The notes under the pieces were generated by a model that was not told the origin of the DNA, made no database searches, and saw only the letters and a list, made by a program, of their open reading frames with translations. A program made the translations under genes and the position numbers. A stretch of DNA of 20,676 nt from a virus: positions 1-20,676 of the IMG/VR virus record IMGVR_UViG_3300025430_000134; one strand, written 5' to 3'. Positions 4,213 to 17,495 of this stretch are shown piece after piece. The first letter of the stretch is position 1, and each line of letters begins with the position of its first letter.

Positions 4213-4235
4213 GATTTGTTACCTTTTTTACGTTA

Positions 4236-4284
4236 GAACTGGTCTTCAATCGGGGCCAGTTCGTCTACCCGTACTGCAAGTATA
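4236..4284 (-). promoter_or_regulatory. Possible ssb promoter and leader hairpin
   Basis: On the minus strand TGTTATACTT has an extended -10 form (TG-n-TATACT, -10 box at 4284-4279) without a convincing -35 box. Downstream, GAACTGG (4262-4256) and CCAGTTC (4242-4236) form a perfect 7-bp hairpin with a 13-base loop in the leader, 20-odd bases before the ssb ATG. There is no T-run immediately after the stem, so this is not a standard terminator. It could be a translational operator, as ssDNA-binding proteins sometimes bind their own leaders. Confidence 0.4.
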
Positions 4285-4292
4285 ACATAACT

Positions 4293-5859: not shown

Positions 5860-5900
5860 GTTATTCTTTCAATTCAAGTTATTGAGGTTTCCATTATACT

Positions 5901-5911
5901 TACTAATACGC
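5901..5911 (-). promoter_or_regulatory. Conserved 11-bp motif, copy 1, upstream of DUF2800
   Basis: Minus-strand GCGTATTAGTA, identical at three other sites in this window. Here it lies immediately after the terminator of the preceding block and about 42 bases before the DUF2800 TTG start. TATAAT follows 2 bases further on, so a -10 element is plausible. I infer a phage promoter element. Confidence 0.6.
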
Positions 5912-5939
5912 AAAAAAGCCACCTCTTGGGTGGCTTTTT
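5912..5939. terminator. Strong bidirectional Rho-independent terminator
   Basis: GCCACC (5918-5923) and GGTGGC (5929-5934) form a 6-bp GC-rich stem around a 5-base centre. A-runs and T-runs lie on either side, so it has the terminator form on both strands. Functionally it ends the tRNA-to-small-terminase block on the minus strand; no plus-strand gene is seen. Confidence 0.92.
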
Positions 5940-5963
5940 AGTAAAAATTAAAAAAATATATTT

Positions 5964-6356
5964 TTAGGCTTTTAGGGCGGCAATCAATTCTGCAATTTCT
6001 TTATTGAAATCCACCTTGGTTTCCACTTTAGCATCTAATTTCACATCGCGGGATTCTTTGTAGGTGTCTTGAAATTGACCACGAACTGCTACTTCTACCA
6101 TACGGGTATTGAAGTTTTTATTTTCAGCATTAGCAAGCATTAGACGCTCCCAATGAGCTTGACTATGTACCAAAGCCATATCAAGAGCTTCAGCAAACTC
6201 TGGATGGTTCTTTTTCATTGTTTCGGCAGCTGCTTTGGTGATACCTAAATCAGACCATATCATCTTTTGAGATGCACCTTGCTTACCTAGCTCGATCATA
6301 CGATCGCACATTTGGGGTTCAAATTTGTATTTTGTTTGGGGTTTTTTAGCTGCCAC
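5964..6356 (-). CDS. Probable terminase small subunit
   Basis: This 130-residue protein looks like phage small terminase subunits, which bind the packaging start site and load the large subunit. Residues about 14-50 resemble a helix-turn-helix (MCDRMIELGKQGASQKMIWS then DLGITKAAAETMKK), followed by HPEFAEALDMALVHSQAHWERLM, a helical part typical of the oligomerisation core. The tail (VETKVDFNKEIAELIAALKA) would bind the large subunit or portal. The start is GTG at 6356, with AAAGGTGG 5-6 bases upstream; it overlaps the DUF6321-like gene by 11 bases. No large subunit gene is next to it: a terminator and then DUF2800 follow. It could instead be a DNA-binding regulator of the same fold. Confidence 0.68.
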   Translation of the reverse strand: MAAKKPQTKYKFEPQMCDRMIELGKQGASQKMIWSDLGITKAAAETMKKNHPEFAEALDMALVHSQAHWERLMLANAENKNFNTRMVEVAVRGQFQDTYKESRDVKLDAKVETKVDFNKEIAELIAALKA

Positions 6357-6609
6357 ACTTCCACCTTTTTAGTGATGCTGCCTTGCGTGTTGGTTTGCCG
6401 TTCTCGTCCTTCATCGGGCCTTTTACGCCAGACATACGAGCACAAAATGAATCTTTACGTGCACCGCCTTCAGGCTGTGGTGCTTTTAAATTGCTGCCAG
6501 TAGCTTTGTTATAAACAGCACGACCTTTGGCGGTAAGCCCAGCGCCCTTAGACGCAGGCAGCTTTTCACCGCGGCCAATTGCAAGCGATACATTTTTCTT
6601 AGTTGCCAT
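6346..6609 (-). CDS. Small basic phage protein, DUF6321-like
   Basis: An 87-residue lysine-rich protein beginning MATKKNVSLAIGRGEKLPAS, with KGAGLTAKGRAVYNKATGSN and RKDSFCARMSGVKGPM. This resembles a conserved small phage protein family I know as DUF6321; I recall the family from its sequence pattern and not from a search. Its role is not established. The ATG overlaps the previous stop as TAATG and the gene overlaps the small terminase start by 11 bases, so the three are translated together. High charge and conserved glycines suggest nucleic-acid or virion association, which is inference. Confidence 0.8.
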   Translation of the reverse strand: MATKKNVSLAIGRGEKLPASKGAGLTAKGRAVYNKATGSNLKAPQPEGGARKDSFCARMSGVKGPMKDENGKPTRKAASLKRWKCGS

Positions 6610-6758
6610 TATTTTTTAGCGGTCTTTGCAGACTCTTTAAATTGTTTTGCTGTTGGAGCGCCTTTGGCGCCCGGTCTGCGCATTTTCTCGTTGGAGCCAG
6701 CTTTGATGCGCTCTTGTTTAGCGTGGATGTTTGCGTACAAACCGGGTTTAGTTGCCAT
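6609..6758 (-). CDS. Small basic phage protein of 49 residues
   Basis: The product starts MATKPGLYANIHAKQERIKA and continues GSNEKMRRPGAKGAPTAKQF to a lysine-rich end. Pairs of this type often sit beside the DUF6321-like protein in phages. The ATG has AAGGA with 4-5 bases of spacing. It is strongly basic (about 13 Lys/Arg in 49), likely disordered, with no enzymatic motif. It lies just after the tRNA and just before the DUF6321-like gene (TAATG). The function is unknown. Confidence 0.8.
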   Translation of the reverse strand: MATKPGLYANIHAKQERIKAGSNEKMRRPGAKGAPTAKQFKESAKTAKK

Positions 6759-6780
6759 ATATTCCTTAAAACAGTTTAGG

Positions 6781-6851
6781 GGTGACCAATGGGATTTGAA
6801 CCCATTCTAAGACAGTCACAATGTCTGGTGCTACCATTACACTATGGCCAC
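6781..6851 (-). tRNA. tRNA-His (anticodon GTG)
   Basis: A complete cloverleaf can be folded by eye. The acceptor stem GTGGCCA pairs with TGGTCAC (one G-T pair). A short D arm contains AATGGTAG. The anticodon stem AGACA/TGTCT has loop TTGTGAC, giving anticodon GTG for histidine. The T arm is ATGGG/CCCAT with loop TTCAAAT. The discriminator is C, as expected for tRNA-His. CCA is not encoded (CCT follows). The base before the acceptor is C and not the usual G-1, so the host Thg1-like or processing system would have to add it, or this tRNA lacks it. It lies inside the minus-strand operon. Confidence 0.92.
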
Positions 6852-6874
6852 GCCTAAGCTGTCTTGCTTAGCGT
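6850..6874 (-). other. Hairpin abutting the 5' end of tRNA-His
   Basis: On the minus strand ACGCTAAGC (6874-6866) pairs with GCTTAGGCGT (6859-6850), allowing one bulged G, around a 6-base loop. The stem overlaps the first two tRNA bases. It may present the precursor to RNase P, or compete with the acceptor stem. Confidence 0.5.
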
Positions 6875-6915
6875 AGTTACGATGTCGAAAGGTAGTTTTT
6901 TGGTTCATTGTGAAG

Positions 6916-7176
6916 TTAAAATATTACTGAAACGCCAGCTAATTTCTTAGCCACGTTAGCCAGTTCTTTTGTTGTCTGACCGCTGATAAAGGTATTGATT
7001 TCAATAGCCTTATCAATGATCTCTTCAGTTGTTGGGAACTGAGGAGCCAATTCTGCAGCCTCTTTAGTTGTTTTGTTTAACACTTCCCACGCCGCCATGT
7101 TGGCTTCGTGCTGCTTGATCATCAAGTCTTTAGCTGTGTTAAAAATAGAAAAGCGTAATTCAAATGGTGAAACCAT
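6916..7176 (-). CDS. Hypothetical helical protein of 86 residues
   Basis: The ATG at 7176 has AGGAG with 7 bases of spacing, so the protein starts MVSPFELRFSIFNTAKDLMI; the longer 100-residue version lacks a ribosome site. It is largely helical and mildly charged (KQHEANMAAWEVLNKTTKEA), ending KKLAGVSVIF. The opening recalls a small protein found in T4-like cyanophages, but I cannot name a function. It follows a 200-base leader with motif copy 2 and precedes tRNA-His. Confidence 0.75.
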   Translation of the reverse strand: MVSPFELRFSIFNTAKDLMIKQHEANMAAWEVLNKTTKEAAELAPQFPTTEEIIDKAIEINTFISGQTTKELANVAKKLAGVSVIF

Positions 7177-7218
7177 GGTAAATCTCCTGTGTGTTGTGGT
7201 GTGTGTAAATGCCCGCAT

Positions 7219-7348
7219 TTTGGTACAAAATCCTCACTGTCTTGGGTGTTGTGAGAATGCCAGTGTTCTATGAAGGCGCGCTGGCAGCCTTTGGCCTTCT
7301 TTACGGCCAGAGTGGGGTTAAGGAGCGTCTCACGACGTGTCCTATATT
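7219..7348 (-). promoter_or_regulatory. Structured leader region upstream of the 86-residue protein
   Basis: Between the 11-bp motif at 7349 and the ATG at 7176 lie about 170 bases without a credible gene, more GC-rich than the other gaps. On the minus strand CGTC-GTGA-GACG forms a tight hairpin closed by a GNRA tetraloop (around 7325-7336). GCCAG at 7285-7281 (minus) can pair either with CTGGC at 7310-7306 or with CTGGC at 7263-7259, so two structures exclude each other. TGGCC/GGCCA is a further competing stem. This is compatible with a regulatory leader or a small RNA; I recognise no known family. Confidence 0.4.
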
Positions 7349-7359
7349 TACTAATACGC
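7349..7359 (-). promoter_or_regulatory. Conserved 11-bp motif, copy 2
   Basis: Minus-strand GCGTATTAGTA, followed 2 bases later by TATAGG. It stands 20 bases after the stop of the 80-residue gene and heads the leader, 86-aa protein, tRNA and small terminase block. See the other copies at 5901, 8996 and 17004. Confidence 0.6.
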
Positions 7360-7378
7360 TTTTTTGAAGCCTTCCGCC

Positions 7379-7621
7379 CTAGTCCGGAATAATGATCTTG
7401 CGGACCGGCTTTTCCTTTTTCTTTTGCTCTTCTTCCATCATCTTTCTGAAGGTTGGCATCATCTCATTGACAATCAGCTTGGTCATTGCCTCTGCCTTGA
7501 GCCGGTCTTCCATCTCTTTTTCTTCGCTGTTTCGCTTAGTTCTCTCATCCACCGCGTTTGCAATGTTGTTGCCAAACTTGCGGTGCTTTAAGAACTGGCG
7601 GATGAAATTTTCATCACTCAT
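7379..7621 (-). CDS. Hypothetical charged helical protein, 80 residues
   Basis: The ATG at 7621 gives MSDENFIRQFLKHRKFGNNI as the start and overlaps the upstream gene by 8 bases. From about residue 23 to 76 the chain is nearly all helix, with dense Lys/Glu (RTKRNSEEKEMEDRLKAEAM then MMEEEQKKKEKPV), probably a coiled coil. It is the last gene of the block that begins at 8996. The function is unknown. Confidence 0.75.
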   Translation of the reverse strand: MSDENFIRQFLKHRKFGNNIANAVDERTKRNSEEKEMEDRLKAEAMTKLIVNEMMPTFRKMMEEEQKKKEKPVRKIIIPD

Positions 7622-7808
7622 CTTTTGTTTCCAGTAATGCCTTGAACTGGGGCTCACCTTGCTGCTGGATTAGCGCAATCAATCCGGCTGATGCAACGTA
7701 TGGTGCCTGCCCAAGGATGTGCAGGATTGCATTGGTTTGTTTTACTGTGAATTTAAATTCAAGGATCTCGTTTTCCAACGGGTCTGATTGTTGTACTTGT
7801 TCTGTCAT
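7614..7808 (-). CDS. Hypothetical protein, 64 residues
   Basis: Starts MTEQVQQSDPLENEILEFKF and continues TVKQTNAILHILGQAPYVAS and AGLIALIQQQGEPQF. The pattern is familiar from small phage proteins often found near structural genes, but I cannot give a role. The ATG has AAAGG at 7 bases and overlaps the previous stop as ATGA. There is one amphipathic helix, no membrane segment and no catalytic motif. Confidence 0.78.
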   Translation of the reverse strand: MTEQVQQSDPLENEILEFKFTVKQTNAILHILGQAPYVASAGLIALIQQQGEPQFKALLETKDE

Positions 7809-8086
7809 TTTTTACCTTTCTTTTTAATTGGGAACATTGCCTCTCTTGCTGCTAACTTAACTGGGTCTGTGCAATATTGATCTAATTCCATTTTGCGGTA
7901 GTACGTATCCATTAGCTTTTCCATTCGCATGTCGTGAAGTGCCTTGATACCAAGTAGTGCTGTGGCCACTTCATCTTCTGTCATTGGTCTGGGCGCGTCA
8001 CCATGGTGCTTGTACAGCAGATCAATGTCTTCGCTGGTTTGCCACGCCACCATGATGGCTGATTCTAAGTCTATTTGGTTATTCAT
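7805..8086 (-). CDS. Hypothetical protein, 93 residues
   Basis: An acidic N-terminal half (MNNQIDLESAIMVAWQTSED) with HHGDAPRPMTEDEVATALLG in the middle, then DTYYRKMELDQYC and a strongly basic tail (PIKKKGKK). Both ends overlap neighbours as ATGA, so translation is coupled. I recognise no family. Confidence 0.75.
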   Translation of the reverse strand: MNNQIDLESAIMVAWQTSEDIDLLYKHHGDAPRPMTEDEVATALLGIKALHDMRMEKLMDTYYRKMELDQYCTDPVKLAAREAMFPIKKKGKK

Positions 8087-8304
8087 TTCATCCTCTTCTT
8101 AGCTTTTTTAAGTTCTGTTGCAAAGTCTGCGCTAAACCATTTACCTACGATTTCAAGGGCCGGCATCATTTCTTGATACGCCGCCACATCATCTTCGTGA
8201 TTGACGGCACCACTTTTTAGCATTTGCTTCATGCTAACATAAGAATCTGCCAGCACATTTACCACAATCTGGTCCGCAAAATCATCATCAATTTCTACAA
8301 TCAT
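8083..8304 (-). CDS. Hypothetical protein, 73 residues
   Basis: I use the ATG at 8304: it overlaps the DUF3310 stop as ATGA and has AGGAG 8 bases upstream, whereas the GTG at 8313 is only 1 base from that site. The protein begins MIVEIDDDFADQIVVNVLAD, an acidic start, has a central helix, and ends in a basic KKAKKRMK. The function is unknown. Confidence 0.75.
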   Translation of the reverse strand: MIVEIDDDFADQIVVNVLADSYVSMKQMLKSGAVNHEDDVAAYQEMMPALEIVGKWFSADFATELKKAKKRMK

Positions 8305-8522
8305 TTTCCACACTCCTCTATTTTTGTTCGTTTTGTAATTTCGCGGTCAATATACCAACGCGCCTTGCGTAGGTCTTCAACTGCGTCTCGTTTTAAATCA
8401 CAGCGCCAAATATATTTAAGCGCATTGCCAAGGTTAAATCCCATGTGCTCAGTGATTTGAATACATTCTATTCCGCTTGGATGCTCGGTGTAATGTTTAG
8501 GCTGGTTGACTGGATCGTGCAT
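8301..8522 (-). CDS. DUF3310 family protein (phage nucleotide kinase-like)
   Basis: At 73 residues it is almost entirely the DUF3310 domain: VNQPKHYTEHPSGIECIQIT (5-24), EHMGFNLGNALKYIWRC (25-41) and LKRDAVEDLRKARWYIDREI (43-62). Phage T7 gene 1.7, a nucleotide kinase, carries this domain, so a role in nucleotide metabolism fits with the reductase elsewhere in the window. The domain alone is short, and activity is not shown by sequence. AAGGA precedes the ATG by 6 bases; it overlaps the upstream gene by 26 bases and the next by ATGA. Confidence 0.92.
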   Translation of the reverse strand: MHDPVNQPKHYTEHPSGIECIQITEHMGFNLGNALKYIWRCDLKRDAVEDLRKARWYIDREITKRTKIEECGK

Positions 8523-8688
8523 GCTTTTTCCTTAATTCATTTTCAACAGCGGCAATCTCTTCAGGGCTGTCGCAAACCCACATAGTCAATATCTTATCAA
8601 ACAAAGAGGTATCAATGTCTTCTACACCAGAGATGGTTTCAAATATCGGATAGCCTTTGTACTCATGCTCAACAATAAATGTGCTCAT
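8497..8688 (-). CDS. Hypothetical protein, 63 residues
   Basis: Begins MSTFIVEHEYKGYPIFETIS and ends KKHARSSQPA. The first half suggests beta strands; DSPEEIAAVENELRKKH is a helix. The ATG overlaps the upstream stop as ATGA. It is located between the sigma-4-like gene and DUF3310. No family recognised. Confidence 0.72.
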   Translation of the reverse strand: MSTFIVEHEYKGYPIFETISGVEDIDTSLFDKILTMWVCDSPEEIAAVENELRKKHARSSQPA

Positions 8689-8996
8689 AAACCAAGTTCC
8701 TTTTTAATAAATTCAACACCTTTTTCAAAATGATACCGCCAATACTTTTCTGTTACTTTTAAATCTTTATATGTAAGCCCTTCTAAAAAACCATGAATAA
8801 TTTCACGTTGTTTTTCGGGCATACGTTCATAAACCAAACGTCGTATATCTAAAATATCTTCAGGGCGCCATGGAAGAAATGGGTCAATTACATCCACGGG
8901 AATACCATCCATATCATCTTGCTCAATTGGATCTAACTCTTCATCGGATAAACGTGGGGTTGCAGCCTTGATTATACTTGTTTTTTTCATAGTCAT
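8685..8996 (-). CDS. Small DNA-binding protein resembling sigma factor region 4
   Basis: From the ATG at 8996 (overlapping the helicase stop as ATGA) the protein has 103 residues. Residues about 1-50 are acidic (DEELDPIEQDDMDGIPVDVI). The C-terminal half, MPEKQREIIHGFLEGLTYKD then LKVTEKYWRYHFEKGVEFIK, matches the layout of sigma-70 region 4: KQREII, a short first helix, a turn at GLTYKDL, then a recognition helix around TEKYWRYHFEKG. There is no region 2 in this protein. A separate protein at 17999-18571 has regions 1.2-3 and no region 4. It might bind -35 DNA or the RNA polymerase beta flap. It could also be a plain HTH regulator. The TTG at 9008 lies inside the 11-bp motif and is not favoured. 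Confidence 0.72.
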   Translation of the reverse strand: MTMKKTSIIKAATPRLSDEELDPIEQDDMDGIPVDVIDPFLPWRPEDILDIRRLVYERMPEKQREIIHGFLEGLTYKDLKVTEKYWRYHFEKGVEFIKKELGL

Positions 8997-10345
8997 ACTA
9001 ATACGCAATTTAGGTCATTTAAAAGTGCTTCTTGCAAATTTATTTTGCCTTCCAATACTTTTATAACGCGCTCGTCAATACTGTCAGACACGGTCAGGTG
9101 ATGAATGATAACCGGTTTTTCTTGCCCTTGGCGGTAGATCCGAGCATTCGCCTGGATGTAGTTCTCTGAGCTCCATGGTAGATCGAACCAGACCGTCTGT
9201 GCTGTGTCTCCAACGTTGCACTGTAGATTGAGCCCGATACCTCCGGATTGCGGGTGGGCAAGCAGCATACGAATCTTGCCACCACGCCACGCTTCAATGT
9301 TGTCATCGTCCAGCACCACCGCTTCTGGGAACTGAAGACGTATTCGCTGGAGCGAATGCTTGAAATGATAGAAGACAAGTGTGGGGCTGGAAGATTCTTC
9401 CATGATCGACTCAAGGTATTCCAGTTTAGCGCGGTGTACTTCTTGGACATCTCCTTCTTCAGTATAGACCGCTCCCGATGTAAATTGGAGCATCTTGTTC
9501 GCCAGTGCCGCTGCTGTTGGAGCTGTGATTTTTTCTTTCTTGATGTCAACGACCATGTCTTTTCTAAGTTCGTCATATTTACTCCTTACGTTTTTGTCTA
9601 TCTGAATAGGGTGGTACAGCTTGGTGCACTCTGGTAATTGCAAATATTCTTCTGCCTTGAGTGAGAAGCAAATGTCCTCAATTTTGCCTTGGATCTGCTT
9701 ATCGGCGCCCGGCTTTAGTTTCCAACTATACACGACGCGGGTGTGGCGGTTCATCTGATCTGGCACCATGTACTTATCCCTAAACTTGGTAAGGCTAGTC
9801 TCTAAACGTTGCCCTAAGTCCAATATACCCACCTGGGACCAGAGATCAGACATGCCCTGAGGGGTAGGTGTGCCAGTGAGGATAACGCGGCGCTTAAAGC
9901 CCTTTAAATGCTTTTTGAGTGCCTTAAAACGCTTGGTGCTAGGATCCTTAAACCGGCTGCTCTCATCAATTACTAAGTTAGTGAACACTAACATATCTGC
10001 GGCGTCTGTAAGCCAAACTACGTTTTCAAGATTTATCAAATAAACATCGGCTTTGGTTTTCAGTGCGGCTTCTCGCTGGGCTGGTGTGCCCATGATTTTG
10101 ACAACTTTTAACTGGCTCAAATGCTCCCACTTCTTGACTTCTGTATCCCAGACTGTCTCTGCTACTCGTTTGGGGGCTATGATCAATGTCTTGCCATCGA
10201 ACTGTTCGGCTATGATTGTAAGTGTGGTTGTAGTCTTGCCAAGGCCTGGGGGTAGAAAGAGCCCAAGGTTTGGAATGGTCGTAGCTTTCTTGATTAGTTC
10301 TTTTTGATACGGGTGTAGCTGGTTTCTTTTGAGCATCTTTATCAT
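8993..10345 (-). CDS. SNF2-family helicase/ATPase
   Basis: A 450-residue superfamily 2 enzyme with the helicase motifs in order: HPYQKELI (11-18), Walker A PPGLGKTTT (32-40), TLIIAPKRV (53-61), Walker B-type VIDESSRFKD (125-134), LTGTP (156-160), and in the second lobe LVFYHFKHSL (323-332), AHPQSGGIGLNLQ (363-375) and the arginine-finger motif QANARIYRQGQ (398-408). DESS in place of DEAH is common in phage members. It would move on double-stranded DNA using ATP, likely to remodel replication or recombination intermediates. It sits with the VRR-NUC and HNH nucleases, a usual phage grouping. The ATG overlaps the HNH stop (ATGA); no independent ribosome site is visible, so coupled translation is expected. 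The last codons include motif copy 3. Confidence 0.95.
   Translation of the reverse strand: MIKMLKRNQLHPYQKELIKKATTIPNLGLFLPPGLGKTTTTLTIIAEQFDGKTLIIAPKRVAETVWDTEVKKWEHLSQLKVVKIMGTPAQREAALKTKADVYLINLENVVWLTDAADMLVFTNLVIDESSRFKDPSTKRFKALKKHLKGFKRRVILTGTPTPQGMSDLWSQVGILDLGQRLETSLTKFRDKYMVPDQMNRHTRVVYSWKLKPGADKQIQGKIEDICFSLKAEEYLQLPECTKLYHPIQIDKNVRSKYDELRKDMVVDIKKEKITAPTAAALANKMLQFTSGAVYTEEGDVQEVHRAKLEYLESIMEESSSPTLVFYHFKHSLQRIRLQFPEAVVLDDDNIEAWRGGKIRMLLAHPQSGGIGLNLQCNVGDTAQTVWFDLPWSSENYIQANARIYRQGQEKPVIIHHLTVSDSIDERVIKVLEGKINLQEALLNDLNCVLV
8996..9006 (-). promoter_or_regulatory. Conserved 11-bp motif, copy 3, in the 3' end of the helicase gene
   Basis: Minus-strand GCGTATTAGTA encodes the last helicase residues and ends at the A of the ATG of the sigma-4-like gene. 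TATGAAA follows 4 bases on. That the same 11 bases recur in coding DNA suggests selection at the DNA level. If it is a promoter here, transcription would begin inside the sigma-4-like gene, and the leader would be very short. Confidence 0.5.
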
Positions 10346-10791
10346 TCATGTTTGTTACTCTTGTCACGGTTTTGTTTTTTGGTTAGGAGTTGTAAGTTCC
10401 AAGGCACATGCAAACCTGATACATTTTTACCATTAAGTGGAATGATGTGGTCAACTTCCCACAACTGTCCTGTAAATTGTTGCAAAATTTTTGCACGTTT
10501 GTACCATATTTTAATTTCCTCAACAAAAACATTTTTAATCCATTTGGGTTTTCTTTGATTACGTTTGGCTCTTACCTTTGCTGCAATTGCGTTCATGTTA
10601 CCACGATTATCAGCTTGCCAATTTCTGATACGCTGGTTTTCTTTTTCATATTTAAAAGGACAACGCCAAAATTCAACAAAGTATTTGTCTTTTTTGTTTT
10701 TAAGATTGCCGTAACCCCAAAACCGAAAACCGTCATCACGATAATCACCTTTTTTAAAAGGCTGTCCGGTGTCAGGATTTAAGCGCCGCAT
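10342..10791 (-). CDS. HNH endonuclease
   Basis: I take the ATG at 10791, with GAGGA 8 bases before it, giving 149 residues starting MRRLNPDTGQPFKKGDYRDD. The HNH core is at the end: LWEVDHIIPLNGKNVSGLHV then PWNLQLLTKKQNRDKSNKHE, with D-H and N as the catalytic and structural residues. The N-terminal part is basic and aromatic (FRFWGYGNLKNKKDK), likely for DNA binding. It overlaps the VRR-NUC gene by 20 bases and the helicase by ATGA. This gene is likely a free-standing homing or host-DNA nuclease; it does not show an intron or intein around it. Confidence 0.88.
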   Translation of the reverse strand: MRRLNPDTGQPFKKGDYRDDGFRFWGYGNLKNKKDKYFVEFWRCPFKYEKENQRIRNWQADNRGNMNAIAAKVRAKRNQRKPKWIKNVFVEEIKIWYKRAKILQQFTGQLWEVDHIIPLNGKNVSGLHVPWNLQLLTKKQNRDKSNKHE

Positions 10792-11074
10792 TAACAAATT
10801 CCTCAACGTCTTCTTTTGATCTAAGAACATGAACAGGAAACCCCTGCTCACCCAGCTCGTCGAACACGAGCACTTGTCTTGGACTTAGTACCCCCGTTGC
10901 TGTTTTTAGTTCTACGAGGTACACTTTTTGGTTCAGAAACACTATCCGGTCCGGCACTCCCGTTATTGAGCTCAGCCATTTGAAGGAGAGCCCCGAGGAC
11001 TTTTTCACTAGTTTCGTTAGATGCTGTTCTATTGCGCTTTCTAGAATTTGCACGTTTTTCATCCTCCGTTGCAT
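10772..11074 (-). CDS. VRR-NUC domain nuclease, largely overlapping the upstream gene
   Basis: A 100-residue protein that is almost all VRR-NUC fold (PD-(D/E)XK type): ESAIEQHLTKLVKK (12-25), GVPDRIV (39-45), VYLVELKTATG (51-61) and SPRQ (64-67). D42, E55 and K57 fit the catalytic pattern and E12 the leading glutamate. Such single-domain phage enzymes cut branched or flap DNA. About 227 bases (10848-11074) are shared in another frame with the HExxH protein gene. The start is uncertain: ATG at 11074 has no ribosome site, while a GTG at 11053 follows GGAGG by 9 bases. It precedes the HNH and SNF2 genes, a classic phage neighbourhood. Confidence 0.9.
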   Translation of the reverse strand: MQRRMKNVQILESAIEQHLTKLVKKSSGLSFKWLSSITGVPDRIVFLNQKVYLVELKTATGVLSPRQVLVFDELGEQGFPVHVLRSKEDVEEFVNAALKS

Positions 11075-11480
11075 AAATTGAAAATACTTGTTTAAAAATG
11101 TGTTCGCCTAAGTAGGAGCGTGACTCATCACCAATTTTAGATTCATCTTCGCCAATGTACTCAAAGACGTGAGTTGTTGTGTGGGATACCTCATGGTAGA
11201 TAATACCCATGCGCTCTAACGCATCTAGTTTTGCCATGTCTTCGTAGTTAAACACGATAGCCATCATGGCAAACTGTGTGCCTTCTTGTTGGATGTAATG
11301 CGACTCAGCTAACCCAAGATCCAAGGAGTTATGTTTGGCAGTGATCTTGGAGTCTTTCAATGCCTGCTGAAAAGCAGCATCAGAAAAGCACACCTTGATC
11401 GTAATACCAAAGTGTCCAGTATCCGCTACGTAGTAGGGCTTATCGGCCAAAAGGGATTGTTGCTCGGAGTTCTTCGTCAC
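10848..11480 (-). CDS. HExxH-motif protein (putative metallopeptidase-like), 210 residues
   Basis: The N-terminal part (residues about 15-140) is folded-looking, with YVADTGHFGITIKVCFSD, FAMMAIVFNYEDMAKLDALE and RMGIIYHEVSHTTTHVFEYI, followed by GEDESKIGDESRSYLGEHIF. HEVSH (96-100) is a zinc-peptidase HExxH. Protein or metal activity is not shown beyond that. The last 70 residues (from KRANSRKRN onward) are basic, Ser/Asn/Gly-rich and likely disordered; this stretch is overprinted by the VRR-NUC gene in another frame. The start is GTG at 11480 and overlaps the 55-residue gene by 41 bases; no strong ribosome site is seen. It resembles a recurring phage protein next to replication nucleases, but its role is unknown to me. 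Confidence 0.8.
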   Translation of the reverse strand: MTKNSEQQSLLADKPYYVADTGHFGITIKVCFSDAAFQQALKDSKITAKHNSLDLGLAESHYIQQEGTQFAMMAIVFNYEDMAKLDALERMGIIYHEVSHTTTHVFEYIGEDESKIGDESRSYLGEHIFKQVFSIYATEDEKRANSRKRNRTASNETSEKVLGALLQMAELNNGSAGPDSVSEPKSVPRRTKNSNGGTKSKTSARVRRAG

Positions 11481-11607
11481 GTTGTTTTTCCAATTCTTCC
11501 AATGTTGGTACGCCGTTTTTAAAAATAGTATCCCAGTTTTTATTAAACTGCTCTAAATTTTGTGGTGGGATTTGTTTGTCTCCCTTGCCGCCATCGTGTT
11601 TTGTCAT
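11440..11607 (-). CDS. Hypothetical protein, 55 residues
   Basis: Begins MTKHDGGKGDKQIPPQNLEQ and continues FNKNWDTIFKNGVPTLEELE, ending IPFGR. The ATG at 11607 overlaps the upstream stop as ATGA, with AAGGA 6 bases before it. Polar and likely partly disordered. No family recognised. Confidence 0.7.
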   Translation of the reverse strand: MTKHDGGKGDKQIPPQNLEQFNKNWDTIFKNGVPTLEELEKQRDEELRATIPFGR

Positions 11608-11882
11608 TTTGGTTCCTTTGCTTTCTTAAGGCCGAGGGCCTTGCGTAGTTCATGGCTGTGTAGCTTCTTGCCTGGATCCTTTACCTCACCGGTTTCTTTG
11701 GCTACCTTAGCGGCTTCTTTGCGGTCAGCAAACTTGCCGTTGGATAACAGGAAGCCACGCTTGTCTTTCTTTACGCCAGCCTTTAGCTCGATCTCTTTGT
11801 GGGAGTATGCAGCAGTGTCCTTGATAATCTTGCCGCTCTTGGTCTTGATTGCTGGTTCAACTACTTTAATCTTTGTTGCCAT
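11604..11882 (-). CDS. Hypothetical basic protein, 92 residues
   Basis: Starts MATKIKVVEPAIKTKSGKII. KAGVKKDKRGFLLSNGKFAD then RKEAAKVAKETGEVK resembles a recurring phage pattern in which residues G(F)...(S/N)G(K/R)...R(K/E)EA...A form a small domain. The C-terminus is a basic helix (HSHELRKALGLKKAKEPK). AAGGA lies 6 bases before the ATG. It overlaps the membrane-protein gene by 17 bases. The function is unknown; nucleic-acid binding is possible from charge only. Confidence 0.78.
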   Translation of the reverse strand: MATKIKVVEPAIKTKSGKIIKDTAAYSHKEIELKAGVKKDKRGFLLSNGKFADRKEAAKVAKETGEVKDPGKKLHSHELRKALGLKKAKEPK

Positions 11883-12060
11883 TTTGGTTCCTTTGTTCTA
11901 CGTGCCATTTGCACAGTTGTTTGTAATAAGCAATATCAATCTCGTACTGAATAACCTTCTTGTCATAGATTGCTTTTTGCTCTTCTAGGTCTTTGTCTTT
12001 TGGTTTTATAAACAGGCCGGCCATGAAGCCTATTAACAGTGCTATTCCTATGTCAATCAT
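11866..12060 (-). CDS. Small single-span membrane protein with coiled-coil tail
   Basis: The 64-residue product (ATG at 12060) starts MIDIGIALLIGFMAGLFIKP, a membrane segment at about 4-18, followed by a charged helix KDKDLEEQKAIYDKKVIQYE and YYKQLCKWHVEQ. The layout resembles phage spanin i-type or anchor proteins, though nothing confirms a lysis role. The ATG overlaps the previous gene by 8 bases; AGG lies about 9-10 bases upstream. Confidence 0.72.
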   Translation of the reverse strand: MIDIGIALLIGFMAGLFIKPKDKDLEEQKAIYDKKVIQYEIDIAYYKQLCKWHVEQRNQNGNKD

Positions 12061-12172
12061 TTCGATGGTACCTGTCGTTAGGGTTGGCCAGCATGCTGGC
12101 AATAAGCTCGTCGGTGGTTGGGAACCACTGGATGACTTTGAGCCCGTCTGCTTGGTAGATGGTGAAGCTCAT
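12053..12172 (-). CDS. Very small protein, 39 residues
   Basis: MSFTIYQADGLKVIQWFPTT followed by DELIASMLANPNDRYHRND. The ATG overlaps the upstream stop as ATGA and the stop overlaps the membrane gene start by 8 bases. Support rests on this tight tiling and protein-like composition; the function is unknown. Confidence 0.6.
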   Translation of the reverse strand: MSFTIYQADGLKVIQWFPTTDELIASMLANPNDRYHRND

Positions 12173-12393
12173 TCTTTTCTCAACATTTTTGCAATTTGGA
12201 AACAAAGTTCAATGTGCTCTGTTGGTGAATCAGATAGCTGTACTCTTAACAGTTTACCCTCTTTGTTTTTAAGTTGGCAAATTGCTATAGCAATAGCTTC
12301 GGCAGTTGCTGATGCGGTGTTCATTGCCATAAGTTCATCAATAGATTCTTGTGCTAGTTTAGTAATTCTTTCCATTGCTTCATTGTGTGTCAT
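12169..12393 (-). CDS. Hypothetical helical protein, 74 residues
   Basis: Starts MTHNEAMERITKLAQESIDE, then AMNTASATAEAIAIAICQLK, ending LCFQIAKMLRKE. Mostly helical, with no membrane segment long enough to call. AGGAG lies 8 bases before the ATG. No family recognised. Confidence 0.75.
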   Translation of the reverse strand: MTHNEAMERITKLAQESIDELMAMNTASATAEAIAIAICQLKNKEGKLLRVQLSDSPTEHIELCFQIAKMLRKE

Positions 12394-12396
12394 AAC

Positions 12397-12585
12397 CTAT
12401 TCTCCTATTCCGTGGGCGCGTTCGATGGCGCGGGCGAACTCAAGGTAATTAAACTGCTCAAACGGCTCTTCATTATCCAGCGTGTAATCTGTGAATGTGC
12501 ACTGTTCCATAATTTCTCTAATTTGTTGATTAGTCAACGGGGTGCGTTGCGCATCTTGCCGGTCTTGTGTGGTGAAGGTGGTCAT
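12397..12585 (-). CDS. Hypothetical protein, 62 residues
   Basis: Polar N-terminus (MTTFTTQDRQDAQRTPLTNQ) followed by QIREIMEQCTFTDYTLDNEE and a helix ending YLEFARAIERAHGIGE. The ARAIERAHGI ending recurs in unrelated small phage proteins in my memory; its role is not known. ATGA overlap at the start; 3 bases separate it from the next gene. Confidence 0.75.
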   Translation of the reverse strand: MTTFTTQDRQDAQRTPLTNQQIREIMEQCTFTDYTLDNEEPFEQFNYLEFARAIERAHGIGE

Positions 12586-12896
12586 TCATCGTCCCTCATT
12601 GGCCATTCTGTATACATCATCGGTGTCCCTACAATATGCTCTTTGCCTGTCACTGCGGCAATAAATTCATGCGGGCTGACTTTGTTGTAGCTTCCATTGA
12701 TTGCTTTTTCATAGTCACCAAACTTATCCTCAAACTGGGCAATCATCATATCTGCTGCAGCGATAGAATTGTCCTGCGCTTTTACTTGCTTTTTCAACGC
12801 CTCTATTTCAGCTTGTTGCTGGCGTGTTGTGTTATTTAATTCAATAATTAACGCTGAGTTTTCTTTAAGCAAATCAGCTAGTTCATTTGCGTTCAT
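12582..12896 (-). CDS. MNANELA-family protein, 104 residues
   Basis: I use the ATG at 12896, giving MNANELADLLKENSALIIEL; AAAGG and GAGAA lie just upstream. A coiled coil follows (NTTRQQQAEIEALKKQVKAQ), then AAADMMIAQFEDKFGDYEKA and a C-terminal part ending YTEWPMRDDE. It shares the first eight residues and the RQQQAEIEALK motif with three other proteins in 13252-14173. The function is unknown. Its ribosome-site region is a copy of a 22-base repeat found at other gene starts nearby. Confidence 0.82.
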   Translation of the reverse strand: MNANELADLLKENSALIIELNNTTRQQQAEIEALKKQVKAQDNSIAAADMMIAQFEDKFGDYEKAINGSYNKVSPHEFIAAVTGKEHIVGTPMMYTEWPMRDDE

Positions 12897-12912
12897 TTCT
12901 CTTGTGCCTTTC

Positions 12913-13008
12913 TTAGCAATGTTTACTTGCAATAATCATCATAAAAGATTGAAAAATTACAATAATACTTAGAATTGTTATCGTTACTCTGCTCCAAAAT
13001 GTAGTCAT
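12913..13008 (-). CDS. Tiny membrane protein, 31 residues
   Basis: MTTFWSRVTITILSIIVIFQ then SFMMIIASKHC. One hydrophobic helix at about 8-27. ATGA overlap with the 35-residue gene. The stop lies just inside the repeat that holds the next gene's ribosome site. Support is by tiling and composition only. Confidence 0.5.
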   Translation of the reverse strand: MTTFWSRVTITILSIIVIFQSFMMIIASKHC

Positions 13009-13112
13009 TTTTTTTGTGCCTTTATTAGTATTGCCATTGAATACAACAATCCAGCCAAAAATCCCGCCACAACAAAAAATGTAATATGCAATCCAATTAG
13101 TAGATATATCAT
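13005..13112 (-). CDS. Tiny membrane protein, 35 residues
   Basis: MIYLLIGLHITFFVVAGFLA then GLLYSMAILIKAQKK: one long membrane helix and a basic end, KAQKK, matching the KAQEK ends of neighbours. The upstream block gives AAAGG and GAGAA before the ATG; ATGA at both ends. Confidence 0.6.
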   Translation of the reverse strand: MIYLLIGLHITFFVVAGFLAGLLYSMAILIKAQKK

Positions 13113-13255
13113 TTCTCTTGTGCCTTTCTTAGTAACTCTTCTAAAACATTTTCCAATTCTTCGCTTATGTAAGTCAAAAGTCTTTCATTGTCCAAATCAT
13201 TGATGTTGTCGTATAAAAAAGTTGCTCTATCCCGAACTCTGTCGTATAAGTTCAT
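13109..13255 (-). CDS. Small protein, 48 residues, with shared LRKAQEK end
   Basis: MNLYDRVRDRATFLYDNIND then LDNERLLTYISEELENVLEE and LLRKAQEK. Acidic helix with the same C-terminal seven residues as the 166- and 78-residue proteins. ATGA overlap on both sides. It lacks the ANELA start and RQQQAE motif, so it may be a reduced or recombinant family member. Confidence 0.72.
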   Translation of the reverse strand: MNLYDRVRDRATFLYDNINDLDNERLLTYISEELENVLEELLRKAQEK

Positions 13256-13752
13256 TTCTCTTGTGCCTTTCTTAGTATTGCTCTAGCAAAATCCACCATC
13301 TTTGAATCAAGACCAATCCAACTACCATTTGAATGTCTTACAAAGATTCCTTTATCTTCTGACCAATTAAATCCAGCTTCTTCTGCTGAACTAATTATTT
13401 CCTCATCTGTTAGTGTCTTTGCTGGATGGGTGTAGAGTGGAACATAACCTTCTTTTGGGTCTGGAATAATACCGCTTGCCGTTACCCAATAATCATGTTC
13501 TTCTAAATACTTTCCATACGCTACTGGTTCATTGCTAAAGACTTTTTCAAATTCAGGTATTTCTTTAAACAATAACTCTATTTCAGCTCGCTGTTTTAAG
13601 ATAACATCTAAATCAGCCAACCTAGCCAACTTCAACTCTTTCAATTCAGCTTGTTGCTGGCGTAGCAAGTCAGGTATTTCCCAAACAAGGCGGTCATACT
13701 CTTCACCTTTGAGGTAATGTTCCAACTCAACAGCTAGTTCATTTGCGTTCAT
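13252..13752 (-). CDS. MNANELA-family protein, 166 residues, longest member
   Basis: Order of parts: MNANELAVELEHYLKG (1-16), LLRQQQAELKELKLARLADL (29-48) as a coiled coil, then a conserved-looking middle with NEPVAYGKYLEEHDYWVTAS and PDPKEGYVPLYTHPAKTLTD, then EEIISSAEEAGFNWSEDKGI and a C-terminal helix DFARAILRKAQEK. The EGYVPLYTHP part occurs in many unrelated phage proteins, where it is an uncharacterised small domain. This looks like a fusion of the coiled-coil head with that domain. ATGA on both ends. The function is unknown. Confidence 0.82.
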   Translation of the reverse strand: MNANELAVELEHYLKGEEYDRLVWEIPDLLRQQQAELKELKLARLADLDVILKQRAEIELLFKEIPEFEKVFSNEPVAYGKYLEEHDYWVTASGIIPDPKEGYVPLYTHPAKTLTDEEIISSAEEAGFNWSEDKGIFVRHSNGSWIGLDSKMVDFARAILRKAQEK

Positions 13753-13940
13753 TTTTCTATCCCAAAGTGTTGTTTAAGAAACGGGCGCCATGTATCTTGC
13801 CAGTGTTTTAATGCTTCTATTTCAGCTTGTTGCTGGCGTAGCATTGCGGCGGCACTACCTACAGGCGATGCTCGCCACTCTTCAATAGTGCAATCATAAG
13901 AAATGCTATCTAGTTCATCAGCTAATTCATTTGCGTTCAT
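13749..13940 (-). CDS. MNANELA-family protein, 63 residues
   Basis: MNANELADELDSISYDCTIE, then EWRASPVGSAAAMLRQQQAE, then IEALKHWQDTWRPFLKQHFG. It is the shortest full member: start motif, variable linker, RQQQAEIEALK coiled coil and a short aromatic tail. AAAGG and GAGAA lie upstream in the repeat; ATGA overlap. Confidence 0.82.
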   Translation of the reverse strand: MNANELADELDSISYDCTIEEWRASPVGSAAAMLRQQQAEIEALKHWQDTWRPFLKQHFGIEK

Positions 13941-14173
13941 TTCTCTTGTGCCTTTCTTAAGTACTCGGCAAGTCTTTCACCATAAGTCAATGAATGTATA
14001 TCCATTTTTAATGCTTCTATTTCAGCTTGTTGCTGGCGTAGCATGGTGGCGGCTTGGTCTAATTGGTCAGCAAGTCTGTCGTTAGCACCTTCTTGTACGC
14101 TCTTACGGCTTGTTGCTTGCCTACGAATTGACGCACGAATTTCCATTGCATCAGCTAGTTCATTTGCGTTCAT
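13937..14173 (-). CDS. MNANELA-family protein, 78 residues
   Basis: MNANELADAMEIRASIRRQA, a basic and polar linker, then ATMLRQQQAEIEALKMDIHS and LTYGERLAEYLRKAQEK. The first of the family in transcription order. AGGTGAG lies just before the ATG. ATGA overlaps on both sides. Confidence 0.82.
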   Translation of the reverse strand: MNANELADAMEIRASIRRQATSRKSVQEGANDRLADQLDQAATMLRQQQAEIEALKMDIHSLTYGERLAEYLRKAQEK

Positions 14174-14301
14174 TTTCTCACCTGTAAAAGTATTGGCCCA
14201 AGTCTATAGACATAGTATACATCGCCGCCATTAAAACGTACAGAGTTCCATTGTAATGGCTCTCCTTTAAACCATGGTGCCTTGTAAAAACGGATGTTCA
14301 T
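14170..14301 (-). CDS. Small conserved-looking protein, 43 residues
   Basis: MNIRFYKAPWFKGEPLQWNS then VRFNGGDVYYVYRLGPILLQ and VRK. Aromatic-rich with likely beta structure. AGGAG lies 5 bases before the ATG; ATGA overlap with the next gene. I recall similar tiny proteins in phages but no function. Confidence 0.68.
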   Translation of the reverse strand: MNIRFYKAPWFKGEPLQWNSVRFNGGDVYYVYRLGPILLQVRK

Positions 14302-14302
14302 G

Positions 14303-14554
14303 CTATCTCCTAAATTGTGGTGTTGGTTTACGTCTGCCGAATGTTTTACGAACCTTTAACGCCCATATACTACCATGCACCTTGTTACGCCAGCCTTGGT
14401 GCGCACGTCTAATCTTTTGCATCTTAAAGCGCGCTTTAATACGTTTTGGCTTATTATAGTAGTCTTGAACAAGGCGCCGCTTGCCAGCGTCACCGAAGAT
14501 AACGCCAAACAAGCTGCGCTTGATGATGCGTGGAAAGTTAAAACGCTTCTTCAT
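14303..14554 (-). CDS. Very basic small protein, 83 residues
   Basis: MKKRFNFPRIIKRSLFGVIF, then GDAGKRRLVQDYYNKPKRIK and ARFKMQKIRRAHQGW, ending GRRKPTPQFRR. Roughly a third of residues are Lys/Arg, with no acidic block, so it probably binds nucleic acid. There is no clear ribosome site; it overlaps the upstream gene by 17 bases and likely relies on coupling. Confidence 0.65.
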   Translation of the reverse strand: MKKRFNFPRIIKRSLFGVIFGDAGKRRLVQDYYNKPKRIKARFKMQKIRRAHQGWRNKVHGSIWALKVRKTFGRRKPTPQFRR

Positions 14555-14687
14555 TCAGTTTGCCCAACATAGCAAACTCTGCATATGTCCACATCATGTC
14601 ACGCACTTCTGCTGGGCTTGCACCACGGGCTACCAAACCCATGAGCGCAAACGCTGCATACATTTCCTTTAGTTCTTGTTCAGTCAT
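14538..14687 (-). CDS. Hypothetical helical protein, 49 residues
   Basis: MTEQELKEMYAAFALMGLVA, then RGASPAEVRDMMWTYAEFAM and LGKLNEEAF. Helical, with an amphipathic pattern. The ATG overlaps the primase-helicase stop as TGATG. No family recognised. Confidence 0.72.
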   Translation of the reverse strand: MTEQELKEMYAAFALMGLVARGASPAEVRDMMWTYAEFAMLGKLNEEAF

Positions 14688-16993
14688 CAAAATATCTCTC
14701 TTTCAAAGTTAGACACAGAATCAGCGTACTGCTGTGCTTTTGGTTTCAATTTTACACCACGATACAAATACTGTACAGCTCCTTCACTACGCTTGCGATA
14801 CGACTCCACATGATGTTCCTGTGTAGAGGCCGCAAACCTACGTTTGAAAGACATCTCTGTGCCAGGGTGTAAGTTTTTCTTAATCGCCCAGTGCTTATAA
14901 CAAGCAAACAAATCGTCTTTATCAACCTCGCCTTCGGGTGTGAAATCCAGCGCTTCCTCAACAAACGACAGCAACGGGTTAGATAGCTCTGTCATCATTT
15001 CCAAAGAAGATTCACTAGATTTAGGTTGCACAAAACGTTCGCCTGATCTTGCTGTGCGCTTCTTATGTCCTTCAATCGCCCAGTTAAAAATACCAGCTAG
15101 CTCTTTAGACAAACGCTCTGCTAGGTTGTGATCTTCTTTACCCCAAAAGCTATTCTTCATAATCAACACCAACATACGTCCAATCAATGCGTTAGAGTTC
15201 TCCGCCAGTTGTAGCATCTCGTTGGAATACACAATAATTCGTGTTGGTAAATACCCCGACCATGCTTCCTTGTTCTTGCGGTTTACAGTCACAGTATCCG
15301 CACCAACAATACGTAACAACTGAGAGACAACGCCAGCTGAGCTTTTAGTTGTCACCCTCGCATCCGTAAAGGACGCAAGCTGTTTACCAAGCCATGGTTG
15401 TAGTCCAAAGGTATCGCACAACTCCTCCATCTGTGGACTTACCACATTATGTTGTCCAAGTAAGTCAGTCAGAACTCGGTTAATCGTGCCTTTACCACTA
15501 CGGCGAGGCCCAATAACATTCAAAAACTTCTGTTGACGAGTGTCGCCTGACAGAATGTATCCAAAATACTCTTGCAACAAGTTCTTTGATTCCTCATCGT
15601 CTTTCCACGCATCGTCCAAGAATTTCAACCAGTCCGGACAAGTTGCCTTCGGGTCATACTCGAATGGTAGCGAGTTGTAAGTAAAGAATCCCAGTGAGTG
15701 CGGATACAACGTGCACGTATCCATATTGAACAGTCCATTTCGCATACTGATCAACTTTTCTGCTGGTGGGTGGTTTGCTTCAAACCCATCTAACCACACT
15801 GGTGGCTTGGCATTCGGATCATTAGCAAGGTGGACAATCGACTTAATTGCATCCAAGGCAGCATTGATGACCGCTGGGTTGGCTGTAAATGGTAGCAGAT
15901 TTCCTTTCTTATCTTGCTTCTGACACTTGTCTAGCATCTTATAAAGTTGTGAACGGATGGTCTGTTCCTCGATGCTGGTGTAGTGAGTCCCATTGTAAAT
16001 AAAGAACTCTTGAGCATAGTGAACAAGACGAAATCCTCCCTCAACCTCGTATAACGAAGCTAAGAACTTACGGGCGTGGTCAAGTGGATTGGAGGCGTCT
16101 AACACGATCTCGCCCCGATCGAGTGCCTCCTTGAGCTTTTTTTGGTTCACCTTGAAGATCAATGAGCGAAGTGTAGTCCCATGACCCCTAAACGTGTTCC
16201 ACTTGTTGATGCACGAATTGATGCCAGTTGATGCGTATTTTAATGACTGTGCGCTCCAACGATCCCACGCTTCCAGTGCTTCCACATCGCCTTGAAACTG
16301 GTGATGCAATGCCATACCAACAGCAGTCCAGTCCGCATAACCACAGTCCGCATCTAAATGAGAAAGCAACTCATTCTCAACACGGTGAACGTCCCATCCG
16401 TCCACAGGGGGTGTGTAGTTCTCAAACGCATCACGGGTTCTTAGCGGGCGAACGGGCATGATTCCTGATAAGTCCTGTGGGGTGTCAGGCAAGTCACCAC
16501 CGAGTTTGTGTCCTGTCATGGTGAAGTATCTGCCGTTTGAGTATGCCTCAAAGCCAATCTCGTGGTCAGCATGCGCGGCAAACTTCTCAGCACGGGTAAA
16601 TATCTTTACACCAGTCCCAGAGGGGCTAACTTCACAATACCCCTGTGTGCTGTCCACGATGTTCTGTGCGAAGTCTGTTAGGACTCCTGTATCAGGATTG
16701 CGACAATCATCAATATCAATCCCAACAAGGTCATCATCCCCAGTAAATACAAAACCAATGCCATCAAAATCGCCATTTTCGTATGCTTTCTGTGCTGTCA
16801 AGAAGTCTACCCATGTCCCTGGGTTGGTCGAGCTACCCATACGACCATTGAGTTGCATTGGGGTTTTAGCCCACTTCTGATTGTCAATCAGGGTATATTT
16901 CCATAAAAGAAACCGAGGAATCATCTTTAAGTCCATCGGTATCTCATCAAACTTTACTTCTAATGCTGATGGTTTAATCATATTATTCTCCAT
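14687..16993 (-). CDS. Primase-helicase: AEP primase/polymerase fused to D5/SF3 helicase
   Basis: A 768-residue replication initiator-type enzyme. The N-terminal AEP (prim-pol) domain shows the catalytic GIDIDDC (91-97; D93, D95) and SPSGTGVKIF (123-132). Residues about 205-285 look like a PriCT-type domain (DWTAVGMALHHQF; SCINKWNTFRG). A D5_N-like part runs about 300-470 (FFIYNGTHYTS, MRNGLFNMDT, CPDWLKFLDD). The SF3 helicase has Walker A GPRRSGKGT (495-503), LASFTDAR (539-546) and the PTRIIVYSNE (583-592) sensor with N591. It would melt the origin, unwind DNA and lay primers, as phage P4 alpha does. Two starts are possible: ATG 16993 (AGGA 7 bases ahead) and ATG 16981 (GGAG 6 bases ahead). 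The adjacent iterons at 17051-17315 are the obvious target. Confidence 0.95.
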   Translation of the reverse strand: MENNMIKPSALEVKFDEIPMDLKMIPRFLLWKYTLIDNQKWAKTPMQLNGRMGSSTNPGTWVDFLTAQKAYENGDFDGIGFVFTGDDDLVGIDIDDCRNPDTGVLTDFAQNIVDSTQGYCEVSPSGTGVKIFTRAEKFAAHADHEIGFEAYSNGRYFTMTGHKLGGDLPDTPQDLSGIMPVRPLRTRDAFENYTPPVDGWDVHRVENELLSHLDADCGYADWTAVGMALHHQFQGDVEALEAWDRWSAQSLKYASTGINSCINKWNTFRGHGTTLRSLIFKVNQKKLKEALDRGEIVLDASNPLDHARKFLASLYEVEGGFRLVHYAQEFFIYNGTHYTSIEEQTIRSQLYKMLDKCQKQDKKGNLLPFTANPAVINAALDAIKSIVHLANDPNAKPPVWLDGFEANHPPAEKLISMRNGLFNMDTCTLYPHSLGFFTYNSLPFEYDPKATCPDWLKFLDDAWKDDEESKNLLQEYFGYILSGDTRQQKFLNVIGPRRSGKGTINRVLTDLLGQHNVVSPQMEELCDTFGLQPWLGKQLASFTDARVTTKSSAGVVSQLLRIVGADTVTVNRKNKEAWSGYLPTRIIVYSNEMLQLAENSNALIGRMLVLIMKNSFWGKEDHNLAERLSKELAGIFNWAIEGHKKRTARSGERFVQPKSSESSLEMMTELSNPLLSFVEEALDFTPEGEVDKDDLFACYKHWAIKKNLHPGTEMSFKRRFAASTQEHHVESYRKRSEGAVQYLYRGVKLKPKAQQYADSVSNFEREIF

Positions 16994-17003
16994 TATCTGT
17001 TCC

Positions 17004-17014
17004 TACTAATACGC
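17004..17014 (-). promoter_or_regulatory. Conserved 11-bp motif, copy 4, before the primase-helicase
   Basis: Minus-strand GCGTATTAGTA ends 10 bases before the first primase ATG. GATAAT lies 6 bases downstream of it and overlaps the start codon region. A dyad operator at 17022-17037 is directly upstream. Confidence 0.6.
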
Positions 17015-17021
17015 AAACTAT

Positions 17022-17037
17022 GTTAGTGGTCACTAAC
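17022..17037. promoter_or_regulatory. 16-bp dyad, possible operator
   Basis: GTTAGTG, 2 bases, CACTAAC: a perfect 7-bp inverted repeat 7 bases from motif copy 4 and upstream of it on the coding strand. Spacing and symmetry suit a dimeric repressor or activator controlling the primase block. Confidence 0.5.
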
Positions 17038-17041
17038 CAAT

Positions 17042-17315
17042 GTCTGTCAAGTGTGTCAAAATTGCCAGTGAATTGACACACTTCTTTTACACACCCCCTA
17101 TATAAATCAAGGACTTAGAGCCGATTGACACACTTGACACACTTCTTTTGTATTTTTTTAATTTTTTTAAAAAAAATAATAATAACATAGGAGAGGTAAA
17201 TATAGCAAAAAAGTGTGTCAAGTGTGTCAATCCTTCGCAAGTCCTTGATTTCATTGACTTTTTCGTGACACACTTTGATTTTGGAAGTGTGTCAATTTAG
17301 GAAGAAGTGTGTCAA
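17042..17315. other. Putative replication origin with iterons and an AT-rich core
   Basis: Nine copies of the 9-mer GTGTGTCAA or its complement: plus orientation at 17051-17059, 17213-17221, 17222-17230, 17287-17295 and 17307-17315; reverse (TTGACACAC) at 17073-17081, 17125-17133, 17134-17142 and, with one mismatch, 17265-17273. A weaker copy is at 17042-17050. Two tandem pairs face each other around an A/T-only stretch (about 17150-17185), and further out ATCAAGGACTT (17106-17116) is matched in reverse by AAGTCCTTGAT (17239-17249). Iterons flanking an easily melted core next to a primase-helicase gene is the usual layout of a phage or plasmid origin. Transcriptional operators are the alternative. 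No gene lies in 16994-17291. Confidence 0.75.
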
Positions 17316-17495
17316 ATGGTATCCAAAATACAAAACTGTGGCTAAAAGTAGCCAGTTGCCAATTTTGTTCCACTTTTCTTCTTCCAAGTCACGCTGTAAG
17401 AAAGACTGGCGGTCATAAATGCCGTAGTCCCCTTCCAGTCCAGTGCAGTCACACACATTTCTGCCCTGATTGTAGTTTCCGGTGCATTGTTTCAT
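17292..17495 (-). CDS. Small membrane protein, 67 residues
   Basis: The ATG at 17495 (AGGTGG upstream, ATGA overlap) gives MKQCTGNYNQGRNVCDCTGL, a Cys-rich start (C4, C15, C17), then a charged helix YDRQSFLQRDLEEEKWNKIG and a membrane span NWLLLATVLYFGYHLTHFFL at the very end. C-terminal anchoring would leave the cysteines in the cytoplasm or periplasm. Its last codons contain an iteron copy. The function is unknown. Confidence 0.75.
   Translation of the reverse strand: MKQCTGNYNQGRNVCDCTGLEGDYGIYDRQSFLQRDLEEEKWNKIGNWLLLATVLYFGYHLTHFFLN

Follow-up and report, generated by a model that had tools for sequence, protein, structure and literature searches.

A repeated 11-bp word as the likely core of promoters read by a two-piece phage sigma factor in an uncultured freshwater phage family

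The late promoters of phage SPO1 need two phage proteins, gp33 and gp34. In phage T4 the work of the sigma factor is divided between gp55, which reads a -10-type promoter, and gp33, a second protein of about 100 amino acids (aa) that takes the place of sigma region 4 on the host core RNA polymerase, the phage having no core polymerase of its own; the name split sigma is used for the pair, gp33 lacks recognisable homology to sigma factors and reads no DNA, and a -35 element is not needed at the late promoters (PMC2988020). The SigO-RsoA system of Bacillus subtilis is cellular, has regions 2 and 4 of a single sigma on separate proteins and serves three known operons (PMC8103513). In phages phiEco32 and 7-11 the promoters recognised by a phage sigma have a short word like an extended -10 (TAATGTATA; TGTGATGTTATA), and relatives differ in the spelling of that word (PMC4331800). 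Here we describe an 11-base pair (bp) word, GCGTATTAGTA, which is repeated in IMG/VR virus record IMGVR_UViG_3300025430_000134, together with two sigma-like genes of the same record. The whole 20.7-kb stretch (20,676 nucleotides, nt) is called the window below; it carries genes for an SNF2-type helicase, a PriCT-2/D5 primase, an exonuclease and a single-stranded DNA-binding protein, a small terminase-like gene and other replication genes. We consider it highly likely, from comparison of related sequences, that the word is the core of a promoter read through the phage's own two-piece sigma in an uncultured freshwater phage family, and the spelling of this promoter very probably varies among the members of the family along with changes in the sigma.

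SPO1 belongs to another phage group and its promoter words differ from this one. The likeness to T4 lies in the division of sigma work over two proteins and in the apparent use of the host core enzyme; unlike in T4, the second protein here is a region-4 homologue and a -35 word stands at fixed spacing in part of the sites. The region-4 fold and the partial -35 word weigh somewhat against a T4-type arrangement, in which the second protein recognises no sequence and no -35 word is needed. The distribution of sigma domains over two proteins is shared with SigO-RsoA, but in the present phage the first protein contains regions 1.2 and 3 as well, and its sites are spread over the whole genome. The short word and its variable spelling recall phiEco32 and 7-11, although the words themselves differ and the parts of that account consulted describe no separate region-4 gene (PMC4331800). 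We would class the system as a variant of phage sigma control. With the terms that we tried, a literature search found neither this phage group nor phage sigmas without region 4 described. The comparison makes the transcription programme of an uncultured freshwater phage family readable and offers a two-protein sigma with a region-4 domain as its second part, and the natural relatives in which spelling and sigma residues have changed together open the reading of bases by residues, including a purine at -7, to direct test with small proteins and short DNA.

Occurrence, geometry and spelling of the word

A first-pass annotation of the window had reported four identical copies of the word in one orientation and had judged chance recurrence very unlikely. 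Exact matching recovers the same four copies, all on the minus strand, where the genes of the window also lie, and the word had 0 occurrences across 300 second-order Markov simulations of the window, in which complex 11-mers reached a maximum of 3 copies on one strand and never 4. The neighbourhoods described for the copies are likewise confirmed: copy 1 follows a hairpin and T-run terminator, copy 2 follows the end of an open reading frame (ORF), copy 3 ends beside the ATG of the sigma-4-like gene, and the primase gene begins shortly after copy 4.

Relatives were fetched by scans with the helicase, primase and sigma proteins, which gave more than 200 related IMG/VR loci, many of them overlapping. 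The motif search of relatives that the annotation had proposed as a check found GCGTATTAGTA again, overwhelmingly on the strand of the query genes, and the aligned copies give the consensus WWTT-GCGTATTAGTA-NNNN-YR-N-GA, where YR is a pyrimidine followed by a purine. The TATA noticed two bases past copies 1 and 2 is present, but the general feature is instead four unconstrained bases and then YR at +15/+16, as seen in all four copies of the window and in 98/98 distinct copies in relatives (about 88% for three other spellings, given below). Where GCGTATTAGTA sites have a -35 word, RGGGC[GC] begins exactly 21 nt upstream in 23/24. When the purine is taken as +1, [TC]ATTAN sits at the place of the -10 hexamer. 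A -35 and a -10 at bacterial spacing and a YR start are found together, the -35 in part of the sites only, and judged from the alignments these fixed offsets match the layout of a -35 followed by an extended -10 and a start site.

Sister phages that lack GCGTATTAGTA have TTGCATTAGTA, TTGCATTAATA or TTGCATTATTA at the orthologous site beside the region-4 gene and genome-wide. Long contigs carry 4-10 exact copies of GCGTATTAGTA or 5-8 of TTGCATTAGTA, TTGCATTAATA or TTGCATTATTA, and a single spelling is largely kept within each contig; the one-base variants are few, and several of these also lie ahead of genes. The -35 word is identical across all spelling classes, with the -21 offset in 23/24, 32/33, 9/10 and 10/11 of the sites bearing GGGC under the four spellings.

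Placement was counted in eleven long contigs (39-80 kb) and the window, which together hold 77 copies. An open ATG lies no more than 100 nt from 67/77 copies, compared with 33% of random positions, and 12/77 copies fall inside a same-strand ORF of at least 100 aa, compared with 47% of random positions; copies scattered through coding DNA without relation to block starts, which the annotation had named as the observation that would speak against it, are therefore not what these contigs show. For 11 of the copies the ATG is the predicted start nucleotide itself.

Two sigma proteins and their linkage to the spelling

The 190-aa protein matches PF04542 (2.9e-7), PF04539 (3.7e-6), PF00140 (3e-5), PHROG 351 and SigA (E 2e-34), and it was mapped onto E. 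coli RpoD numbering. It has homology to sigma70 regions 2 and 3 and has no region 4 on the same polypeptide, which stops soon after the EPxSLD at the start of region 3.2. The family of the 101-aa protein matches Pfam Sigma70_r4_2 weakly, in 21/48 members (best 4.7e-5). Because a sequence search of the PDB with the region-4 profile gave nothing convincing, a fold search was needed; among PDB folds the AF2 model (pLDDT 78.5) matches sigma region-4 domains best, with 1or7 at Z 9.0 and 2h27 at Z 8.9, and the protein as modelled is a region-4 fold. A search for phage records carrying the region-4 protein found none. The two genes lie about 9 kb apart with the helicase gene between them. Two relatives have a second, divergent region-4-like ORF near the sigma gene (L080:2419-2733 and L096:7278-7724).

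The strongest evidence that this pair reads the word is the linkage of spelling to both sigma genes and not to other genes. Loci were typed by promoter spelling as class A (GC) or class B (TT). The class changes 1 time on the sigma tree and 1 time on the region-4 tree (92 loci), compared with 19 times on the helicase tree, where at least 7 changes are forced by well-supported branches. Quick trees gave 5 changes for primase, 8 for exonuclease, 4 for ssb, 13 for VRR nuclease, 5 for RNR and 7 for the small terminase. When only the 39 loci with all three genes are compared, the counts are 1 for sigma, 1 for region 4 and 6 for helicase. As far as these trees tell, gene exchange is common in these phages, yet it has not parted the two sigma genes from each other or from the spelling.

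The sigma residues differ between the classes in places known from sigma-70, where the extended -10 is the target of H455 and E458 and base -12 that of Q437 and T440 (PMC2613000), and where T429 forms the bend between the flipped -11 and -7 bases, the -7 pocket taking no purine (PMC4496690). In E. coli numbering, checked against rpoD, K455/R457 go with the GC spelling and N455 with M, V or A457 goes with TT. Among the loci that could be typed, those with T429 have G at hexamer position 6 and those with S, G or A at residue 429 have A or T there; one T429 locus is a tie without a G site. In the lineage spelled TTGCATTAATA (G013), a residue other than T429 was predicted before the sigma had been found, and the sigma then showed S429.

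Taken together, these comparisons lend support to the earlier suggestion of a phage-specific promoter, perhaps for a split sigma: there is a region 1.2-3 protein and a separate region-4 fold. We suggest that the word serves as the extended -10 core in promoters specific to the phage, and that these are read by host core RNA polymerase loaded with the phage two-piece sigma. The 190-aa protein, probably made early, would bind the -10 and the extended -10, and the 101-aa protein would probably bind RGGGCG at -35 where this is present. Transcription would start at the YR purine, counting 16 nt on from the word's first base, and middle and late genes would be started at these sites, some as leaderless transcripts, with leaderless translation presumed at copy 3. 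The use of the host core polymerase is suggested because no phage RNA polymerase was found in the related records searched.

Several observations weigh against this reading. No strict site was found in the loci of 12/86 distinct sigmas, and the -35 word is present in only a fifth to a third of the sites. The frame of the -10 hexamer was picked by its fit to known contacts, and an alternative frame that begins three bases later, TANTAT, is possible but would leave a short distance to the start. Evolutionary events are few: the GC/TT spelling switched once and the -7/429 relation has only two independent pairs, so that sign tests on independent pairs had too few events for significance and singled out no residue. 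Nine alignment columns fully separate class A from class B, and a simple code from residue 440 to base -12 was rejected as it breaks in L203 and L243. Because of the few events, the nine separating columns and the -12/440 mismatch, the assignments of residues to bases are suggestive only.

Alternative explanations

The word could instead be an operator for another phage DNA-binding protein, such as an activator working at promoters of the host sigma-70 holoenzyme, rather than a -10. The MotA activator at T4 middle promoters is a precedent, extra palindromes lie upstream of some sites, and the region-4 protein by itself has a DNA-binding fold. We nevertheless regard an operator as unlikely: the sequence downstream shows no further conserved hexamer, an invariant YR follows the word at the distance expected of a -10, and the linkage of the class to the region 1.2-3 sigma is as tight as that to the region-4 protein. 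A promoter for a phage single-subunit (T7-type) RNA polymerase would also be compact, and the motif of about 23 bp with its A/T flank and fixed start, as well as TAATACG on the other strand, brings this to mind; the -35 at bacterial spacing and the two sigma genes linked to the class make it very improbable. The T7-like plus-strand reading itself was rejected, as it faces away from the genes. PF00940 (T7-type polymerase) was not found in 17 related records, which may be incomplete, nine of them searched beside a T7 control that was detected (E 1e-109), and the annotation was right to set the T7 resemblance aside. No PF00562 (multisubunit polymerase) was found in eleven related records.

It is equally improbable that the word acts in RNA, as a translation signal or the site of a regulator in 5' leaders. 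At copy 3 and ahead of some structural-side genes it does end a fixed 5 nt before the ATG, but elsewhere it stands up to about 160 nt ahead of the start codon and directly follows terminators, and both the hairpin at copy 2 and the DUF2815 RNA, described below, start after the word. A search of Rfam with the word itself gave no match. Short repeats do occur in phages, and these phages recombine often, so a dispersed repeat without regulatory role (a mobile or recombination sequence, or a packaging signal) could be imagined; this appears extremely remote, since the orientation tracks transcription on both arms, the spelling shifts genome-wide with the two sigma genes, and no copies unrelated to transcription units were seen.

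Predicted expression programme and features of the window

If the two-piece sigma reads the word as we propose, the order of expression would run from early host promoters to middle and then late genes. In 44-78 typed loci no same-strand sites occur in the interval between 9 kb upstream and 1 kb downstream of the sigma start; they begin 1-2 kb downstream of sigma, and opposite-strand sites begin 4-9 kb upstream, towards the structural side. With no phage-type site near its start, the sigma gene probably relies on host promoters for early expression, and its product would then open the rest. A scan for host sigma-70 promoters gave matches no more frequent than in shuffles.

Sites on the structural strand have the -35 word more often than same-strand sites (35/70 compared with 56/247, p 2e-5, the homologous sites not being independent), and same-strand sites with a -35 are mostly of the copy-2 type, which in the window leads to the terminase. 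Middle promoters would then use the sigma alone, and late promoters the sigma with the region-4 protein. From this distribution we tentatively raise the further possibility, to which we would not commit ourselves, that the split may be a timing device, in which the region 1.2-3 sigma alone opens middle promoters with only an extended -10, including that of the region-4 protein, which then turns on the RGGGCG late promoters; the two proteins and the spelling would be one unit not separated by recombination, forming a natural series of specificity switches that includes purines at -7.

Three features agree with individual predicted starts. The DUF2815 RNA (Rfam RF03084), which precedes the gene for the single-stranded DNA-binding protein, begins at 4271, one nt past the start predicted from a drifted fifth site (Table 1); at the homologous sites relatives retain the phage word. 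The hairpin at copy 2 is kept, with compensatory changes, across spellings: 4/8 pairs are changed on both sides, and 97% of cells are paired, compared with 36-55% in slid controls. At the region-4 gene a conserved ATG would be lost from any transcript beginning downstream of the predicted start.

Table 1. Coordinates of the word and associated features in the window
Feature	Position	Strand	Remarks
Copy 1, GCGTATTAGTA	5901..5911	-	predicted start 5895, YR at 5896/5895; heads DUF2800/PD-(D/E)XK exonuclease gene (4705-5859)
Terminator-like hairpin and T-run	5912..5939	-	directly upstream of copy 1; read from sequence; several relatives alike
Copy 2, GCGTATTAGTA	7349..7359	-	predicted start 7343; heads block with tRNA-His and small terminase-like gene
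Putative -35 element AGGGCG	7375..7380	-	begins 21 nt upstream of copy 2; position common to relatives' sites
Hairpin with GNRA-type loop	7321..7343	-	from predicted +1 of copy 2; fold and covariation
Copy 3, GCGTATTAGTA	8996..9006	-	within last codons of SNF2 helicase gene; predicted start 8990
Sigma region-4-like protein, 101 aa	8685..8990	-	ATG is predicted copy 3 start site
Copy 4, GCGTATTAGTA	17004..17014	-	predicted start 16998; heads primase-helicase gene (14687-16993)
Palindrome GTTAGTGACCACTAAC	17022..17037	-	possible operator; 7 bp upstream of copy 4
Drifted fifth site ATGTTATACTT	4278..4288	-	upstream of DUF2815 RNA (4210-4271); reads host-like TGnTATACT
Phage sigma factor, 190 aa	17999..18571	-	regions 1.2, 2, 3 and start of 3.2; no region 4

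The primase-helicase gene more likely starts at 16981, after GGAG, than at 16993. Relatives (e.g. L083, L113 and L099) have TTTCACATTGTGAAA-type palindromes upstream of copies, including the homologue of copy 4, and palindromes like GTTAGTGNNCACTAAC occur in the window at 17022-17037, 9974-9992 and 122-140, as possible sites of another regulator. A host search in a genome collection returned only one contig, that of a betaproteobacterial metagenome-assembled genome (L278, CAIPQU010000110.1), which carries a region-4-like gene and TTGCATTAGTA sites; it is a lead to the host and possibly a binned phage contig.

Upstream of the primase gene, positions 17040-17360 hold TTGACACACTT and TGTGTCAA repeats in both orientations and a 54-nt inverted repeat, perhaps a replication origin or an operator array. 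Small paralogous ORFs that start MNANELAD and share a repeated leader, GAAAGGCACAAGAGAAATGAACGC, occupy 12582-14173, and the end of the record (20559-20676) consists of a 19-nt tandem repeat.

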